DNA from: Armatimonadota bacterium
Lineage (GTDB): Bacteria; Sysuimicrobiota; Sysuimicrobiia; Sysuimicrobiales; Kaftiobacteriaceae
Direction of reading: 5' to 3'
Assembly (NCBI GenBank): GCA_031459765.1
Contig: JAVKHY010000004.1
Coordinates: 1 to 64,000 of the forward strand
DNA length: 64,000 nt
The stretch's first letter is position 1, and the number at the start of each line of letters is the position of its first letter. Both the position numbers and the translations under genes were made by a program. This document shows, in pieces, positions 40,788-49,677 of the stretch. The notes under the pieces are model-generated. The model worked only from the letters and a program-made list of their open reading frames with translations, searched no databases and was not told where the DNA came from.

Positions 40788-41708
40788 ATGGCGAAGCTGA
40801 CCTTCCGTACGAGCGAGCCGGGCGATGTTGACACCCTCGTGGCCCTCTACGACCGCCACTACGAAGGCGGGTACTCGGCCTGCTTCGATCGGTACGGTCC
40901 GGCCACGCCCCGGGACTTCTGGTGGGTCCAGTCGGAGAAGTCGCTCACCCTGGTCGAGGTGAATCGGAAGGTCGTCGGCCTGATCGTCATCGGGCGCTCG
41001 GGGAGACGGCTGCTGGCGGAGGAGGTGATCCTGGACGTCGATCGCGGAGAGCGGGATGATCTCCTCCCTCAACTCCACGAGTGGCTCACCCGTCGCTTCC
41101 AGCAGGCGCGGCAGGAGGTCCTGTCGATCCGCGGGGCGGAGACCAACGCCGTTGTGCTGGCCATGGCCCGCACCTTCGGATTTGTTTTCGCCGACGCGCT
41201 GGTTGTGGCCGTCGGCGGCCGGCCGGCCGCGGGGGCCCCGACCGCGACCGGCCGGCCGCCGGCCGGCGGACCGGCGCACGACGAGGACCGGTCACCCGGG
41301 GAGGGCCCCCGCGGCTACCGCATCCGCCGGGCTCGGCCCTCCGACGAGCAGGCCCTTTCGCAACTGCACGAGGAGACCGTGGGGCCGGTCCGGGCCAGCG
41401 ATCTCAAGGCGCTGTGGACCCTACCCGATGTCCGTATCCTCCTGGCGGAGCGCGACACGTTTCCGGTGGGGTTTCTGATTGCGCAGGTACGAGACGGTGC
41501 CGGGCGGTGGCTCGTCGGTGTGCGTCAGACCCACCGGGGCAAAGGGCTCGGCCGGGCGCTGGCCGCGGAGGCCCTGCAGTTCTTCCGTGCCAGACGCGTT
41601 CCGGCCGTCACCACCTACTGGGGGACGGACTCAGGCGCGATACGCCTGGCCCGCGCGATCGGGGCGAAGACGGAGCGGGTCTTCCTGTACTTCCAGCGAC
41701 CGCTGTGA
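40788..41708 (+). CDS. protein with two GNAT acetyltransferase domains
   Basis: The 306-residue protein has an N-terminal GNAT-like domain (residues 1-140, KVVGLIVIGRSG) lacking a clear acetyl-CoA loop, a low-complexity linker (residues 145-175, Pro/Gly/Ala), and a C-terminal GNAT domain with GVRQTHRGKGLGRALAAEAL, which matches the Q/RxxGxG/A acetyl-CoA motif. Substrate unknown. It follows rsfS on the same strand and ends just before a convergent short gene. Confidence 0.75.
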   Translation: MAKLTFRTSEPGDVDTLVALYDRHYEGGYSACFDRYGPATPRDFWWVQSEKSLTLVEVNRKVVGLIVIGRSGRRLLAEEVILDVDRGERDDLLPQLHEWLTRRFQQARQEVLSIRGAETNAVVLAMARTFGFVFADALVVAVGGRPAAGAPTATGRPPAGGPAHDEDRSPGEGPRGYRIRRARPSDEQALSQLHEETVGPVRASDLKALWTLPDVRILLAERDTFPVGFLIAQVRDGAGRWLVGVRQTHRGKGLGRALAAEALQFFRARRVPAVTTYWGTDSGAIRLARAIGAKTERVFLYFQRPL

Positions 41709-41967: not shown

Positions 41968-43203
41968 CTACGGCGGCGGTCCCCGCAGGCCGGCCCGGAC
42001 CTCCGCCTCGTACCGGTTGTGCGCCCGGCAGCGCAGCTGGAGGTTGTCGACCGTCGCCCTCCCACCGGCGCTGAACGGAACGATGTGGTGGAACTCGAGG
42101 AAGCCGCGCTCCGTGCACCGATGGCCGTCGCCGCTTGTGAAGGTGCACCGTCCCTCGTCGCGGAGCCACACCGCCCTTCTGACGTCCGGCGGGATGTAGC
42201 GCGAGCCGGGCGGAATGTCGCGCGAGCCGGGCCGGGGCTCCCGCAGTGGAGACCCGCCGGGAGGGGCCTTCGACGACGGTTCCAAGGAGGGCGCCGTGCG
42301 GGCCGTGCCCGGCCGGGGGGGCGCGCGGTCGGCGGCCCCGAGCTTCCGCTTCATCAGTTCGTTCAGCAACGCCGTCAGCGCTCGATCGACGATCTTCCCG
42401 ACGTCGCCGTCGGGAATCTGGTGGCGTAGCAGGTCCTGCGCGGCGCGGAGTTTGGCGTGGGTGTCGGGGCTGGCCGTGAACTGGACCCGGTAGAACTGTT
42501 CCGCCAGTGGGGTGATGGCCGCGCGCCGAGAAGCAGGCGGCGTGGTCGGCGACGGCGCGGGGGGTGAGACGTGCCGGATGCGATCCTCCGACGATACCGG
42601 CGATGGGCCGGCGGCGTCCGGGCCGGGGGCAGGTTCCGGCCCGGATGTATCCAGGATCGGCCCGGACGTGGTTGCGGCGGCGGGCGACGGGGCGGGGAGC
42701 CGGCGGATCAGCGAGCGTGCCGGCGGACGAGGCCGGAGCCGGGCGATGATCTCCTCGACCTGCCGCCTGGACTTGTGGGTGACGGCGGCCAGCAGGTCAC
42801 GGTGGTTGTCCGGCGTCAACTCCGGCGCCAACAGCGTGACAGCGGTGAGGGTGACCGAGCCGTCGGCCAGAAGATCCAGGACGAGGGGATAGCGCCGGGC
42901 CGCACGCGCGGCCTGAATCCGGCCGTACGCCGCATGCTCGGACAGGTGGAGGAACTGGGTAAGGTAGGCGAAGAGCGATGAGGCGCCTTCCTCGAGGTAC
43001 AGCTGCCGTTCGTCCAGCACGGCCAGATGGGCAATCAGGATGGCCGTGGCCCGGCGCTCATCGGCGGCAAGCCCCTTGACCCGCGCCACCAGTTCCCGGT
43101 TGGTGAGGCGGCGGGCTCCCGACAGCGACACGACACTGACGGCTGTTGAGGCGGTATCCACCGCCGCGGTCCCGAGCGGTGCGGCTTCGCTGCGCATCGC
43201 CAA
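41968..43203 (-). CDS. HNH endonuclease with DUF222-like N-terminal domain
   Basis: The 411-residue protein has a helical N-terminal region (residues 30-160, HLSEHAAYGRIQAARAARR), a long Pro/Ser/Ala-rich linker (about 165-225), a second helical block with HAKLRAAQDLLRH, and a C-terminal HNH domain: VWLRDEGRC, FHHIVPFSAGG, DNLQLRCRAHN. Proteins of this layout are abundant, often multicopy, and of unknown function; solitary HNH nucleases may be mobile. It lies between housekeeping blocks on the opposite strand. No intron or intein context is visible. Confidence 0.85.
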   Translation of the reverse strand: MAMRSEAAPLGTAAVDTASTAVSVVSLSGARRLTNRELVARVKGLAADERRATAILIAHLAVLDERQLYLEEGASSLFAYLTQFLHLSEHAAYGRIQAARAARRYPLVLDLLADGSVTLTAVTLLAPELTPDNHRDLLAAVTHKSRRQVEEIIARLRPRPPARSLIRRLPAPSPAAATTSGPILDTSGPEPAPGPDAAGPSPVSSEDRIRHVSPPAPSPTTPPASRRAAITPLAEQFYRVQFTASPDTHAKLRAAQDLLRHQIPDGDVGKIVDRALTALLNELMKRKLGAADRAPPRPGTARTAPSLEPSSKAPPGGSPLREPRPGSRDIPPGSRYIPPDVRRAVWLRDEGRCTFTSGDGHRCTERGFLEFHHIVPFSAGGRATVDNLQLRCRAHNRYEAEVRAGLRGPPP

Positions 43204-43383: not shown

Positions 43384-43413
43384 TTGACGCCGAATGCACG
43401 GCGTCGTTATAAT
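43384..43413 (+). promoter_or_regulatory. strong promoter of the T-box/tRNA-Ala/ilvE/leuS unit
   Basis: TTGACG (43384-43389), an 18-nt spacer and a perfect TATAAT (43408-43413): the best promoter match in the window. Transcription should begin close to 43420, just where the T-box Stem I begins. Confidence 0.8.
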
Positions 43414-43419
43414 GGCAGG

Positions 43420-43757
43420 GCGTAACGCGATGACCGGAAGCAGTAGGCCGGCGCTCGGGCCCAAGCGAGCCGGTGGAACGGGTGGAACGACCGGTGCCAG
43501 GAGCCAGCCGAACTCGTCCGGGAGCAGCGGACCCGACCGCACGGGCGTTGACCCGCCTGCGCGCAGGGTCGCCGGGGCTCACCCGATACGTGAGGTGAGC
43601 GGATAGCGTTGCCGGGGCTGTAGCTCAGAGGGAGAGCGCCCGCTTGGCGTGCGGGAGGTCGAGGGTTCAATTCCCTCCAGCTCCACCAGAGACGCTGTCA
43701 ATCGTGGGTGGTACCGCGGAGGCCGCCTTCGTCCCACGGGACGAGGCGGCGTTTCTA
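43420..43757 (+). promoter_or_regulatory. leucine-type T-box leader interrupted by a tRNA gene
   Basis: T-box leaders sense uncharged tRNA and control termination. Stem I features: the K-turn-like GATGACCGGAAGCAGTA (43429-43445), AGCGAGCCGG (43464-43473), an apical hairpin CCGGT/ACCGG (43470-43474 with 43490-43494), and GAACTCG followed by CCGGGAGC, with CTC (43513-43515, Leu) as likely specifier followed by a purine. The antiterminator T-box is GGGTGGTACCGCGG (43706-43719), where TGGT can pair with ACCA. The competing terminator stem is 43722-43735 with 43738-43750, followed by GTTTCT. A full tRNA-Ala lies between. GATAGCGT (43602-43609) and ACGCTGTC (43692-43699) pair around it. Downstream genes are ilvE and leuS, which fits leucine sensing. 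Confidence 0.87.
43614..43688 (+). tRNA. tRNA-Ala (anticodon GGC)
   Basis: A complete cloverleaf: acceptor GGGGCTG with CAGCTCC, including the G3-U70 pair that identifies alanine tRNAs; D arm GCTC/GAGC; anticodon arm CCCGC-TTGGCGT-GCGGG with anticodon GGC; T arm GAGGG-TTCAATT-CCCTC; discriminator A and encoded CCA (43686-43688). It reads GCC/GCU codons. It is embedded in the T-box leader and must be cut out by RNase P and 3' processing enzymes, which would also sever the leader. Confidence 0.97.
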
Positions 43758-43773
43758 CTTTGGAGGGATGACG

Positions 43774-44748
43774 ATGGCCGCATCGATCTGGTTCAACGGG
43801 GCGCTGGTCGCCGCGGAGGAGGCGCGCGTGCCGGTTACGGTCCACGCGCTGCATTACGGCAGTTCCGTCTTTGAAGGGATCCGCGCCTACGCCACCCCCC
43901 GGGGACCGGCGGTGTTCTGCCTGGCCCAGCACGTGCGCCGGCTGGTGGATTCCTGCCGGATTTTCCGCATGACGCTGCCCTACAGCGCGGCGGAGCTCAC
44001 CGACGCGATCCTGACCACGGTGCGCGTCAACGGCCATGAGAGCTGCTATATCCGCCCCATCGTCTTTCGCGGGACGGGGACCTTCGGCCTGGACCCGCGG
44101 AAGGCCTCGGTGGAGGTGGCGATCATCACCTTCGAGTGGGGACGGTACCTGGGCCAGGAGGCCCTGGAGCAGGGGGTCGATGTGATGGTCAGTTCCTGGC
44201 GGCGGGCCGCGCCGGACACCGCCGTCCCCATGGCGAAGATCGGCGGCCAGTATGTGACGTCGCAACTGATCGCGATGGAGGCCGCCGATCACGGGTTCAC
44301 CGAAGGCATCGCCCTGGACGCCCAGGGGTTCGTCAGCGAGGGCAGCGGCGAGAACATCTTCCTGGTGCGGGAGGGAGTGGTGTACACGCCCCCGCTGTCG
44401 GCAAGCGTCCTCCCCGGCGTGACGCGCACCGTGGTGGTGACGATGCTGCGGGATCTGGGGGTCCCGGTACGGGAGGAACCGCTCCTCCGCGAGGCCCTGT
44501 ACACCGCCGACGAGCTGTTCTTCACGGGGACGGCGGCGGAGATCACCCCGGTCCGCTCCGTGGACCGGATTCCCGTCGGCAGCGGCCGCCGCGGCCCGCT
44601 GACGGTGCGGCTGCAGGAGCAGTTCTTCGGCCTCATCTCGGGCGCCGTGCCGGACCGGCACGGCTGGCTGACCTATGTCCGCGCCGGTGCCGAAACACCG
44701 GGGCGCCCGGGAGTCGAGGCGAGGGCGGAAGAGGACGTGAGGGCGTAG
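43774..44748 (+). CDS. ilvE: branched-chain amino acid aminotransferase IlvE
   Basis: This fold-type IV PLP enzyme makes leucine, isoleucine and valine from their keto acids. The 324-residue protein has the opening WFNGALV, HALHYGSSVFEGIRAY, the PLP lysine in MAKIGGQYVTSQL, EGSGENIFLV, and the FFTGTAAEITPV phosphate-binding loop. ATG 43774 is chosen because GGAGGG lies 6 nt before it; ATG 43768 directly abuts that site. Expression should depend on the T-box leader. LeuRS is encoded 17 nt downstream. Confidence 0.95.
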   Translation: MAASIWFNGALVAAEEARVPVTVHALHYGSSVFEGIRAYATPRGPAVFCLAQHVRRLVDSCRIFRMTLPYSAAELTDAILTTVRVNGHESCYIRPIVFRGTGTFGLDPRKASVEVAIITFEWGRYLGQEALEQGVDVMVSSWRRAAPDTAVPMAKIGGQYVTSQLIAMEAADHGFTEGIALDAQGFVSEGSGENIFLVREGVVYTPPLSASVLPGVTRTVVVTMLRDLGVPVREEPLLREALYTADELFFTGTAAEITPVRSVDRIPVGSGRRGPLTVRLQEQFFGLISGAVPDRHGWLTYVRAGAETPGRPGVEARAEEDVRA

Positions 44749-44765: not shown

Positions 44766-47246
44766 ATGCGTTACGACGCCACCGCAATCGAGGCCAAGTG
44801 GCAGGCCCGGTGGGAGGCGGACCGGCTGTACCACGCCCCCGATTTCGATCCCCGGCCCAAGTGGTACTTCCTGACGATGTACCCCTATCCGTCGGGAGAC
44901 CTGCACATCGGGCACTGGTATGCCATGGCACCCTCGGACGCTGCGGCGCGCTTCCGGCGCATGCAGGGCTACAACGTGATGTTCCCCATCGGCTTCGACG
45001 CCTTCGGGCTGCCTGCGGAGAACGCCGCGATCCAGCACGGGATCCACCCGTACACCTGGACGATGGAGAACATCCAGCGCATGCGCCGCCAGCTGCGCTC
45101 CATGGGGGCGATGTGGGACTGGGACCGCGAAATCGTCACCTGCGACCCCGAGTACTACAAGTGGAACCAGTGGTTCTTCCTGCGGATGTACGAACGCGGC
45201 CTGGCCTATCGCGCTTTGGCGCCCGTGGACTGGTGCCCCCGCGACAACACGACGCTGGCCCGGGAGCAGGTGGTCGGAGAAGAGCGCGTCTGCGAGCGCT
45301 GCGGCACGCCGGTGGTGAAGAAGAACCTGGAGCAGTGGTTCCTGCGGATCACGGCCTACGCCGAGGAGTTGCTGAACTTCTCCGGCATCGAGTGGCCGGA
45401 GCGGGTGCGGGTGCTGCAGGAGAACTGGATCGGCCGCAGCCCCGGGGTGGAGTTCGAGCTGAAGGTCGCGGGTCACCCCGACGCCGGCTTCCGGGTGTTC
45501 ACGACACGGCCGGATACGGTGTACGGCATGACCTTTGCGGTCCTGGCCCCCGAGCATCCGCTGGTGGATCGCCTGACCACGCCGGAATGCAAGGCGGAGG
45601 TCGAGGCCTACAAGTTCAAGGCGGCGCGCACCTCCGACATCGAGCGGCTGTCCACGGAGAAGGAGCGGGACGGGGTGTTCATCGGAGCCTACGCGGTGAA
45701 CCCCATGAACCAGGAGAAGGTGCCGATCTTCATCGCCGATTACGTCCTGCTGACCTACGGGACGGGGGCGATCCAGGGCGTGCCGGCCCACGACGCCCGG
45801 GACTTCGCCTTCGCCCGCCGCTACGGCCTGCCCATTCCCGTCGTCGTCGCCCCGCCGGGCTGGGACGGGAGCCCGCTGCGCGAGGCGTATCTGGGCGAAG
45901 GGACGATGGTGAATTCGGGTCCCTTCAGCGGCCTGTCCTCCGCGAGGGGCTGGGAAGCCGTCGCCGACTATATGGAGCAGCACGGCATCGGCAAGAGAAC
46001 GGTCCACTACCGGCTGCACGACTGGCTGATCAGCCGGCAGCGCTACTGGGGGACGCCCATCCCGATCATCTACTGCCCGCAGTGCGGGACGGTGCCGGTG
46101 CCCGACAAGGACCTTCCCGTGACCCTGCCCATGGACGCCGAATTCCTGCCCACCGGCGAATCGCCTCTGAAACGCCACGAGGGCTTCCGGAGGGTGCGGT
46201 GTCCGACCTGCGGCGGTCCGGCCGAGCGCGAGACGGACACCATGGACACCTTCATCGACTCCTCCTGGTACCAGTACCGGTACGTCAGCCCCCACGAGGC
46301 CGGCCGTCCCTTCGACCCGGTCCGCGGGGCCTACTGGTTGCCCGTGGACCAGTACACCGGCGGCGTGGAACACGCCGTCATGCACCTGCTGTACACCCGC
46401 TTCTGGACAAAGGTGATGCGGGACCTGGGACTGGTCTCCTTCAGCGAGCCGATGCTGCGCCTGTTCAACCAGGGCGTTATCCTGGGCGAAGACGGAGAGA
46501 AGATGAGCAAGTCGCGGGGCAACGTGGTGAACCCCGACGACTACGTGCGCACCATGGGCGCCGACGTCGTGCGCACCTACCTGATGTTCATCGGTCCCTG
46601 GGAAGGCGGCGGTCCCTGGAACAGCCGGGGGATCGAAGGCGCCCAGCGGTTCCTGCAGCGCGTCATGGCGGTCGTGGGGTACGGCGATGCTTCCTCCTCC
46701 GGAGGGGACGCAGGGCGGGGATCGGGGCCGGCGGCGCCCCGCAGGCCCTCCGCGGAGGCCGTGCGCGAGCTGCGCCACTGGACCCACAAGACCATCAAAA
46801 AGGTCACGGAGGATCTGGAAGGGTTCCGCTTCAACACCGCCATCGCGGCGCTGATGGAGTTCGTGAACGAGCTGGGGCGGGTGAAGAGGATACTGGAGGG
46901 CACCCCGGCCTGGCGGGAGGCGGTCCGCACGCTGGTGTTGTTGCTGGCCCCCATCGCCCCCCACCTGAGCGAGGAGCTGTGGGCGCATCTGGGCGAGTCC
47001 TACAGCGTGCACCAGCAGCGGTGGCCGGCCTTCGACGCGGCGCTGGCCCGCGCGGAGACGGTCACCCTGGTGCTGCAGGTGAATGGCAGGGTCCGGGACC
47101 GCGTCCGGGTCCCCGCGGATCTGAACGAGGCCGAGGCCCGGGAACTGGCGCTGCGGAACGAACGGGTGCGCAAGTTCCTCGACGGCAAGGAGGCGGCGGC
47201 GGTCGTCGTGGTCCCGGGACGGCTGGTCAACGTCGTGACGCGGTGA
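44766..47246 (+). CDS. leuS: leucyl-tRNA synthetase LeuS
   Basis: It charges tRNA-Leu with leucine. The 826-residue protein has the HIGH motif in PSGDLHIGHW, zinc-type cysteines CERCGTP, the CP1 editing domain with TTRPDTVYGMTF and GTGAIQGVPAHDARD (editing residues intact), and the KMSKS loop EKMSKSRGN. The C-terminal anticodon and leucine-specific domains end with VVPGRLVNVV. ATG 44766 is preceded by GGGGAGG; GTG 44754 is possible. It lies in the T-box-controlled operon. Confidence 0.96.
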   Translation: MRYDATAIEAKWQARWEADRLYHAPDFDPRPKWYFLTMYPYPSGDLHIGHWYAMAPSDAAARFRRMQGYNVMFPIGFDAFGLPAENAAIQHGIHPYTWTMENIQRMRRQLRSMGAMWDWDREIVTCDPEYYKWNQWFFLRMYERGLAYRALAPVDWCPRDNTTLAREQVVGEERVCERCGTPVVKKNLEQWFLRITAYAEELLNFSGIEWPERVRVLQENWIGRSPGVEFELKVAGHPDAGFRVFTTRPDTVYGMTFAVLAPEHPLVDRLTTPECKAEVEAYKFKAARTSDIERLSTEKERDGVFIGAYAVNPMNQEKVPIFIADYVLLTYGTGAIQGVPAHDARDFAFARRYGLPIPVVVAPPGWDGSPLREAYLGEGTMVNSGPFSGLSSARGWEAVADYMEQHGIGKRTVHYRLHDWLISRQRYWGTPIPIIYCPQCGTVPVPDKDLPVTLPMDAEFLPTGESPLKRHEGFRRVRCPTCGGPAERETDTMDTFIDSSWYQYRYVSPHEAGRPFDPVRGAYWLPVDQYTGGVEHAVMHLLYTRFWTKVMRDLGLVSFSEPMLRLFNQGVILGEDGEKMSKSRGNVVNPDDYVRTMGADVVRTYLMFIGPWEGGGPWNSRGIEGAQRFLQRVMAVVGYGDASSSGGDAGRGSGPAAPRRPSAEAVRELRHWTHKTIKKVTEDLEGFRFNTAIAALMEFVNELGRVKRILEGTPAWREAVRTLVLLLAPIAPHLSEELWAHLGESYSVHQQRWPAFDAALARAETVTLVLQVNGRVRDRVRVPADLNEAEARELALRNERVRKFLDGKEAAAVVVVPGRLVNVVTR

Positions 47247-47301: not shown

Positions 47302-49677
47302 GCGACACCGTACGACTTCGCCGCCGTCGAAGCGCGCTGGCGGCGCCTCTGGGAGGCGCAGGCGCTGGACCGCACCCCCGACCCGTCGGCGCGGCCGAAG
47401 GCGTACATCCTCGATTTCTTCCCCTACCCTTCCGGGGAAGGTCTCTCCGTCGGTCACGCCAGAAACTACGTCCCCACCGACGTGCTGGCCCGTTACTTCC
47501 GGATGCGCGGGTACGCCGTCCTGCACCCCATGGGCTGGGACGCCTTCGGGCTGCCGGCCGAGAACGAGGCCCTGCTGCGCGGCCGCCATCCCCGGGAGAC
47601 CACCGCCCGCTACGCCGCCAACTACCGCCGGCAGCTGACCCGGCTGGGCTGCTCCTACGACTGGACGCGTGAGCTCATCACCAGCGATCCGGCGTTCTAC
47701 CGCTGGACCCAGTGGGGGTTCCTCCTACTGTACCGCCGCGGGCTGGCCTACCGGGCGACGGGTTGGCAGTGGTGGTGTCCCGCCTGCCGGACCATCCTGG
47801 CCAACGAGCAGGTCGTCCAGGGGCGGTGCTGGCGTCACGGGGATACGCCGGTGGAACGGCGGGCCCTCGAGCAGTGGTACGTGCGCACCACCGCCTATGC
47901 CGAGCGGCTGCTGCGCGATCTGGACCGGCTGGACTGGCCCGAACACATCAAGACCATGCAGCGCAACTGGATCGGCCGGTCGGAGGGGGCGGAGATTCGC
48001 TTTGGAATTCGGGGCGAACCGGGGGCGATCACCGTCTTCACGACGCGGCCACAGACGCTGTCGGGCGCCGCGTTCATCGCGCTGGCTCCGGAGCATCCGC
48101 AGGCGACGGCCTTGAGCGCCGCGGATCGGCGCGAGGAGGTCGCGCGATTCGTCTCGGAAGCGCTGCGCCGCACGGAGATCGAGCGTCAGGCAGGCGCCTC
48201 TGTCCGGGGAGTCTTCACCGGCGCCTACGCCGCGCATCCGTTGACCGGCCGGCCCCTGCCGGTCTATGTGGCGGATTACGTGCTGGCGCAGTACGGGGAG
48301 GGGGCCGTGATGGGCGTCCCGGCGGCCGATGCGCGCGATGCCGCCTTCGCCCGGCGGCATGCCCTGCCGGTTCTCCCGGTGGATGGGACGGCGACCGCCG
48401 AGGCGGTGCTGGCCGACTTGGCCCGGGCTGGCGCCGGCGGTCCGGCAGTGCGCTACCGCATGCGGGACTGGCTGATCAGCCGCCAGCGCTACTGGGGCGC
48501 TCCCATCACCATCGTGTACTGCGCGCACTGCGGGACCGTGCCGGTTCCCGACGACCAGCTGCCGGTCCGGCTCCCCGAGGTGGCACATTACGTCGCTGCG
48601 GGAACGGGGCGCTCACCGCTGGACGCGATCCCCGAGTTCGTCCGGACCGTATGCCCGCGCTGCGGCGGCCCGGCCGAGCGGGAGACCGACACCCTGGACG
48701 GGTTTGCCGACTCCAACTGGTACTTTCTGCGCTTCGCCGATCCCCGCTGGCCGCACGGTCCGTGGAATCCCGACGCGGTCGCCTACTGGCTGCCCGTGGA
48801 CTGGTACGTCGGCGGGGCGGAGCACGCCGTCATGCACCTCCTCTACGCGCGCTTCTTCACCAAGGTCCTCTATGATGCGGGGATGCTGGCGTTCGACGAA
48901 CCGTTTGTCCGGCTGCGCAGCCAGGGCAGCGTGCTCTCGCCCGTGGACGGGGCGCGGATGAGCAAGTCGCGCGGGAACGTGGTCACTCCGGACGAGGTGG
49001 CCGCCGTCTACGGGGCCGACGCCCTGCGCCTGGCCGTGATGTTCATCGGTCCCTTCGATCAGGACGTGACCTGGGACCCGGAGGCGGCGGTCGGGGCGGC
49101 CCGCTTCCTGCGGCGTCTGCACAGGCTGGTCGGCCGTGCGGCACGCGCCGAGCCGCGGTCCGAGGATCCCCCTCAGGCCCAGGCCGCAGTCAGGCGTCTG
49201 CGGCGCGCCGGCCGGAAGCTGGGTGAACTGATCGAGGCATTCCGCTGCAACGTCCTGGTCGCCGAACTGATGACCGTGCTCAACGATCTTGAAGCCTTGG
49301 AGGGTGCCTGTCGCGGATCGCCCGCGTGGCGGCAGACCATGGTGGACCTGACGAGGCTTATCGCCCCCGTCGCGCCGTTTCTGGCCGAAGAAGCCTGGGC
49401 CATGCTGGGGCAGACCGGAAGCGTGCATCGGACCTCCTGGCCCGAGGGCGGGACGGCTCCCGGCGACGAAAGGGAAGCCACCATCGTCATTCAGGTGGAC
49501 GACCGGGTGCGCGATCGCCTGACCGTCGCGCAGGTCCACGATCGGAATGCGCTCGTCGAGCATGCCGGCCGGCGGCCGCGTGTCCGGGCGGCCCTCCGAG
49601 GGCGGGAGATCGCCGACGTGATCGTCGTCCCCGGCCGGGTCGTCAACTTCGTCACCCGTGGGGACTCGGGCGCGTGA
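47302..49677 (+). CDS. divergent second leucyl-tRNA synthetase paralogue (start unresolved)
   Basis: A LeuRS-like protein of about 790 residues. Coding similarity begins near 47308 (YDFAAVEARWRRLWEAQ) and includes an altered HIGH region, PSGEGLSVGHARNY, but this frame has no ATG, GTG or TTG between an in-frame stop at 47236 and GTG 47482. A start at GTG 47482 would remove the HIGH motif. KMSKS is ARMSKSRGN. The editing domain has TTRPQTLSG and VPAADARD where LeuS has TTRPDT and VPAHDARD, so editing may be weak. ATG 47270 in another frame would join after one extra base near 47296. It may be an active variant, a specialised paralogue or decaying. Confidence 0.75.
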   Translation, partial: ATPYDFAAVEARWRRLWEAQALDRTPDPSARPKAYILDFFPYPSGEGLSVGHARNYVPTDVLARYFRMRGYAVLHPMGWDAFGLPAENEALLRGRHPRETTARYAANYRRQLTRLGCSYDWTRELITSDPAFYRWTQWGFLLLYRRGLAYRATGWQWWCPACRTILANEQVVQGRCWRHGDTPVERRALEQWYVRTTAYAERLLRDLDRLDWPEHIKTMQRNWIGRSEGAEIRFGIRGEPGAITVFTTRPQTLSGAAFIALAPEHPQATALSAADRREEVARFVSEALRRTEIERQAGASVRGVFTGAYAAHPLTGRPLPVYVADYVLAQYGEGAVMGVPAADARDAAFARRHALPVLPVDGTATAEAVLADLARAGAGGPAVRYRMRDWLISRQRYWGAPITIVYCAHCGTVPVPDDQLPVRLPEVAHYVAAGTGRSPLDAIPEFVRTVCPRCGGPAERETDTLDGFADSNWYFLRFADPRWPHGPWNPDAVAYWLPVDWYVGGAEHAVMHLLYARFFTKVLYDAGMLAFDEPFVRLRSQGSVLSPVDGARMSKSRGNVVTPDEVAAVYGADALRLAVMFIGPFDQDVTWDPEAAVGAARFLRRLHRLVGRAARAEPRSEDPPQAQAAVRRLRRAGRKLGELIEAFRCNVLVAELMTVLNDLEALEGACRGSPAWRQTMVDLTRLIAPVAPFLAEEAWAMLGQTGSVHRTSWPEGGTAPGDEREATIVIQVDDRVRDRLTVAQVHDRNALVEHAGRRPRVRAALRGREIADVIVVPGRVVNFVTRGDSGA

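Follow-up and report, generated by a model that had tools for sequence, protein, structure and literature searches.

A tRNA-Ala(GGC) gene predicted to cap Stem III of a leucine T-box leader, and its recurrence across bacterial phyla

Anatomy of the leader upstream of the BCAT and leuS genes

The 64,000-nt stretch of contig JAVKHY010000004.1 (assembly GCA_031459765.1) analysed here, hereafter the window, carries a branched-chain aminotransferase-like (BCAT) gene followed by leuS, and upstream of both a leader in which the elements of a leucine T-box lie on either side of a complete tRNA-Ala(GGC) gene (Table 1). A second leucyl-tRNA synthetase-like gene (47482-49677), also with editing and anticodon-binding domains, stands in tandem with the first (44766-47246) in the same operon region.

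Table 1. Features of the composite leader and of the genes that follow it (window coordinates)
Feature	Positions	Strand	Evidence
Sigma-70-type promoter, TTGACG-18 nt-TATAAT	43384..43413	+	Promoter scan
T-box Stem I: AGUA motif, apical elements, specifier loop	43427..43526	+	RF00230 alignment
Specifier codon CUC (Leu), GAA before, purine after	43513..43515	+	Sequence and RF00230 alignment
Stem II region	43529..43568	+	RF00230 alignment; fold
Hairpin region between Stem II and purine string (Stem IIA/B position)	43572..43596	+	RF00230 alignment; fold
GAGCG, the RRRxG purine string of the T-box discriminator	43597..43601	+	Sequence; published motif (PMC7583486, PMC7778990)
Stem III 5' strand, GATAGCGTT	43602..43610	+	RF00230 alignment, folds, arm matching
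tRNA-Ala(GGC), CCA encoded; the genome's only copy	43614..43688	+	ARAGORN, RF00005, genome tRNA survey
Stem III 3' strand, GACGCTGTC	43691..43699	+	RF00230 alignment, folds
AA after Stem III, discriminator motif	43700..43701	+	Sequence; published motif (PMC7778990)
Antiterminator with T-box sequence GGGTGGTACCGCGG; UGGU bulge 43709-43712	43706..43735	+	RF00230 alignment
Putative competing terminator hairpin	43719..43753	+	Fold, z=-3.9
Branched-chain aminotransferase-like gene (Aminotran_4)	43774..44748	+	Pfam PF01063
leuS, leucyl-tRNA synthetase	44766..47246	+	Pfam

The promoter at the head of the leader presents 11 of 12 consensus matches (0.0 expected in shuffled sequences) and is the sole promoter-like site detected by the scan between 43300 and 43830; an initial annotation of this DNA had already marked it as a consensus promoter. 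The Rfam T-box model (RF00230) aligned over its full length (1-219) to positions 43421-43739 with 54.1 bits (E=1.4e-10), taking in the upstream part that the same annotation had assigned to Stem I. In this alignment the arms of Stem III are separated by an insert of 84 nt, of which 75 nt are the tRNA-Ala(GGC) gene. The score lies below the Rfam gathering cut-off of 93 bits, which is a curation threshold and not a structural feature, and so do the scores of all 12 T-boxes in this GC-rich genome. The homologous composite leader of Thermosyntropha reaches 133.2 bits, and composites above the cut-off are likewise found in Syntrophomonas, Desulfofundulus, Tengunoibacter, Symbiobacterium and others.

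The specifier codon agrees with the amino acid of the downstream BCAT-leuS operon, and CUC is also the specifier in nearly all relatives. The T-box discriminator frame has been defined as 5'-RRRxG-StemIII-AA-3' (PMC7583486, PMC7778990); this frame and the UGGN bulge are intact in the window leader, and the AA occupies one fixed position in 92 of the 105 leaders. From the encoded CCA to GGGTGGTACC we measured 17 nt, which corrects the 18 nt previously given for the spacing of tRNA and T-box motif. Beyond this motif, both an antiterminator and a competing terminator can be drawn. The hairpin of the putative terminator is strong (z=-3.9), but its T-tract (GUUUCUACUUU) is poor, and the consensus terminator scan did not report it.

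The embedded gene was called as tRNA-Ala(GGC) by ARAGORN and matched the Rfam tRNA model (RF00005) with 69.2 bits, upholding its earlier identification as a tRNA-Ala(GGC) with encoded CCA. It presents a complete cloverleaf, the GGC anticodon and the G3-U70 identity pair of alanyl-tRNA synthetase (AlaRS), a pair that is kept in all 105 embedded genes examined. Among the 46 tRNAs of its own genome, it is the only tRNA-Ala(GGC). Copy number in relatives was assessed with a pattern for any tRNA bearing the anticodon GGC, and a single such tRNA was found in 31 of the 33 diverse carrier genomes with a match and in 38/40 genomes of the window's order. From this single-copy status and from the share of GCC and GCT codons (194 of 338 alanine codons across seven genes of the window), we infer that the embedded tRNA would be processed and aminoacylated in the cell.

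The sequences flanking the tRNA pair over 8 bp, as first suggested, or over 9 bp if the terminal wobble is counted, leaving 3 nt between the resulting helix and the 5' end of the tRNA and 2 nt at its 3' end; Stem III of Desulfofundulus directly abuts the tRNA 3' end (0 nt). Minimum-free-energy folds of both 43580-43704 and the whole leader yield this flank helix capped by the cloverleaf. With a z of about -1, the overall folding energies are ordinary given the base composition, and the case for the structure hence depends on the covariance model and comparative data, not on energy. We matched the arms of 98 distinct leaders in a fixed register, plus or minus 1, with the 5' arm anchored by RRRxG and the 3' arm taken before the T-box motif. 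A leader's own arms form at least 6 uninterrupted base pairs in 44% of cases versus 12% with swapped 3' arms (maximum 23% in 500 swaps), a control in which sequence relatedness remains. Pairings of at least 5 bp comprise 29 distinct helix sequences. Judged from sequence, tRNA-Ala(GGC) thus sits as the apical loop of a true Stem III in a leucine T-box.

Recurrence across genomes and separation of the two modules

About twenty genomes of the window's order have a tRNA-Ala(GGC) gene upstream of a BCAT gene, and in most of them T-box elements flank the tRNA. A species-wide scan, using one genome per species and searching for GGTGGNACCNCG within 35 nt downstream of a tRNA T-arm and CCA, returned at least 120 stretches. 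Among the matches listed and those of the order, 107 tRNAs at no more than 35 nt from a T-box-like motif are tRNA-Ala(GGC) and 18 are of other types. The latter were considered as candidates for other tRNA types embedded in T-boxes and set aside: they look like a tRNA next to a chance GGTGG, and no T-box was found at the eight non-Ala loci scanned. The scan identified at least 94 tRNA-Ala cases, with phylum labels, as deposited, of Bacillota (at least 54), Chloroflexota (at least 20), Thermomicrobiota (at least 5), Armatimonadota (at least 3, the window's own order included), Atribacterota (at least 3), Coprothermobacterota (at least 2) and Actinomycetota (at least 2). At least one MAG each is labelled Caldisericota, Pseudomonadota and Thermodesulfobacteriota, the latter two of which may be mis-binned.

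In the phylum of Thermosyntropha, 59 of 300 sampled genomes carry the pattern. Cultured carriers of the arrangement include Syntrophomonas, Desulfofundulus, Tengunoibacter and Dictyobacter. In all 14 diverse genomes searched the tRNA falls within the T-box model match, as it does at 8/8 loci in a detailed scan of partly overlapping genomes. An insertion confined to one genome or an assembly artefact can hence be ruled out, given that the arrangement recurs across the order and in other phyla. Together with the Rfam alignment and the RRRxG/AA motif, these tens of genomes bear out the central proposal of the initial annotation, namely that in a leucine T-box a complete tRNA-Ala serves as the loop of a helix resembling Stem III. 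Beyond that proposal, the arrangement is widespread and the embedded gene is its genome's sole tRNA-Ala(GGC).

Across leaders, the T-box motif follows the tRNA at distances from about 12 to more than 100 nt. Three leaders (L045, L046 and L047, from genomes G006, G009 and G008) present insertions of roughly 40-115 nt at this point, partly repeat-like and with sequence shared between species, and retain an intact T-box motif. In two Ktedonobacteria genomes, a second tRNA gene precedes the leucine T-box bearing tRNA-Ala (L094, 4012-4084 and 4402-4474; L142, 3114-3186 and 3490-3562), and both genomes have a second tRNA-Ala(GGC) copy elsewhere.

In nearly all cases leuS lies downstream of the composite leader, and the order nadD-rsfS-leader-leuS-comEA recurs in several phyla, the window included. 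In the window, this order is interrupted by an HNH-endonuclease ORF (41968-43203, minus strand) and a GNAT gene (40788-41708, plus strand). Five Desulfotomaculum-like genomes (L086, L108, L127, L165 and L180) present about 1.8-2 kb between the composite leader and leuS, and another gene may therefore come first in their regulated operon. A quick LeuS tree, built by a fast method, groups the sequences largely by phylum label, with 11 changes compared to 28 in shuffles and a minimum of 8. This fits an arrangement that would be old and mostly vertically inherited; early transfer of the whole neighbourhood could also account for it.

A few relatives present the two modules apart. In three of them (G017, G029 and G038), a leucine T-box with a plain, short Stem III lies upstream of the BCAT gene and the tRNA-Ala is elsewhere. 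In three others (G016, G019 and G022), no T-box was found at the locus, where a promoter, the tRNA and a terminator-like hairpin are present, and family f7 has a solitary tRNA-Ala gene shortly downstream of its own promoter. These split units look like derived losses of one module. The possibility that tRNA and T-box are separate transcription units, which had been named as grounds for discarding the original proposal, was accordingly rejected: in the window, the scans detected neither a promoter nor a terminator on the stretch from the tRNA to the T-box motif, and in relatives the two mostly form one unit. Since either module has been lost alone, the modules are separable and neither strictly needs the other, which argues against obligatory coupling between them; coupling may still operate where both are present. 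One further genome (G014) carries a rearranged leader (L234, 1478-1900) in which the 3' half of the tRNA is present once more ahead of the T-box motif and Stem I is unclear, apparently a degenerate or duplicated composite.

A candidate two-output leader and its alternatives

The data are best accounted for, with a probability that we put at about 0.7, by a two-output leader RNA in which one promoter would serve both tRNA-Ala(GGC) and the leucine T-box control of BCAT-leuS. Transcription from this promoter would produce a leucine T-box in which the sole tRNA-Ala(GGC) gene of the genome takes the place of the apical loop of Stem III. With the tRNA placed ahead of the predicted conditional terminator, it would be part of each transcript, whether that transcript ends there or extends further, and tRNA-Ala would mature via RNase P and 3' trimming in either case. 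Uncharged tRNA-Leu(GAG), bound to Stem I and the UGGU bulge, would decide read-through into BCAT-leuS, and under plentiful leucine the T-box terminator would also end the tRNA gene. With the tRNA folded as the Stem III cap, the discriminator (RRRxG-StemIII-AA and the antiterminator) would stay intact. The pair might then persist because an essential single-copy tRNA needs a strong promoter, which would overexpress leuS in the absence of attenuation; it counts against this lock-in argument that it can account for the constant tRNA identity, Ala(GGC), only through common descent.

The proximity of Stem III to the tRNA ends, at 2-3 nt, could hinder RNase P and the 3' nucleases, so that the two outputs would compete instead of coexisting. 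This bears on a different reading, which we regard as possible but unlikely, in which tRNA excision is itself part of the regulation, and leuS expression and the yield of tRNA-Ala affect one another. Stem III might shield the pre-tRNA up to the point of decision; alternatively, the RNase P and 3' cuts might split the sensor from the decision part, so that the leuS mRNA acquires a new 5' end. Such coupling would be in keeping with possible competition between helix pairing and processing enzymes so near both tRNA ends, and with the retention of tRNA and T-box together over great evolutionary distance. In its strongest form, which is also doubtful, Stem III formation and tRNA-Ala release would be mutually exclusive, and one RNA would have adjusted both LeuRS expression and the main Ala-decoding tRNA since before several phyla diverged. 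Judged by conservation, however, the T-box works without the tRNA in G017, G029 and G038, and the tRNA works without the T-box in the f3 and f7 relatives; these losses, like the varying spacing of tRNA and T-box motif, argue that processing coupling is not essential. In a Symbiobacterium genome, a TGGT just before the tRNA (L138, 2339-2345) can pair with its ACCA end, and pairing of pre-tRNA 5' nucleotides with ACCA is reported to inhibit an RNase P recognition step (PMC9433436).

The embedded ACCA end could also be imagined as a decoy that pairs with the UGGU bulge in cis, biasing the switch or sensing alanine charging. The two are complementary in 103 of 105 leaders, but so would be any tRNA with A73, including nearly every tRNA-Leu checked, and since tRNA-Leu has the same end, cis pairing is unlikely to be the point of the arrangement. 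For the same reason the discriminator base, considered as a means of telling cis from trans pairing, was uninformative. Moreover, two leaders have a UGGA bulge and one has UGGC while their embedded tRNAs still end in ACCA, the distance from tRNA to bulge is unconstrained, the 3' end of the nascent tRNA would not be free, and the GGC anticodon mismatches the CUC specifier, all of which makes a cis decoy very improbable. In a genome with the UGGA bulge, tRNA-Leu(GAG) was not recovered. The low Rfam score and poor T-tract of the window leader, which count against a two-output leader, would together with the loss of the sensor in some relatives favour a relic, that is, a T-box that is non-functional here and a locus that is merely a tRNA gene before an operon. 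Yet low scores are common to all T-boxes of this genome, the specifier, AGUA, RRRxG, UGGU and predicted antiterminator/terminator elements are intact in the window leader as well as in relatives within its order, and the Stem III arms stay matched, which leaves this explanation with hardly any credence.

Implications and relation to known systems

If the two-output leader operates as proposed, T-box Stem III would tolerate a whole tRNA as its cap, and a riboswitch with an essential gene in its sensing core would be spread over Bacillota, Chloroflexota and several other phyla. It would also provide a natural case of one RNA that must serve both intact, for switching, and cut, for tRNA production. 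Two predictions follow, namely that T-box databases and tRNA annotations should overlap at composite loci, and that tRNA-Ala(GGC) levels should depend on the leuS leader promoter. The literature searched, including TBDB, a 2020 T-box review and a 2008 T-box survey, with two older T-box reviews outside its scope, yielded no description of a functional tRNA as a T-box Stem III cap. Both parts are of known kinds and, to our knowledge, their combination is undescribed.

The window leader shares with leucine T-boxes (RF00230), which lie upstream of leuS and leucine operons, a Stem I with specifier CUC, the Stem II region, the RRRxG-StemIII-AA frame, the UGGN bulge, a predicted antiterminator/terminator pair and the leuS operon. 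Where ordinary leucine T-boxes have a short Stem III hairpin loop, a complete tRNA-Ala(GGC) forms the apical part here, and unlike them the leader would also be a tRNA precursor. With plain tRNA-Ala(GGC) genes (RF00005) it shares the cloverleaf, the GGC anticodon, G3-U70, the encoded CCA and the single copy, and it differs from them in that the gene lies inside a riboswitch, behind a structured 5' leader of roughly 190 nt, and would have a regulated terminator and an operon as its 3' trailer. Transcripts in which tRNA genes are polycistronic with mRNA or rRNA are known, and processing enzymes free the tRNA from them. The release of the tRNA from a longer transcript by processing would be common to those cases and to the window leader, but polycistronic tRNAs lie between genes, whereas this one lies within the folded core of a regulatory RNA. 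In Bacillus subtilis, the T-box leader of thrS is cleaved upstream of the terminator. The window leader would likewise be a T-box transcript cut between its sensor and coding part; in thrS the cut is made by an RNase near the antiterminator, whereas here it would be the excision of the tRNA.
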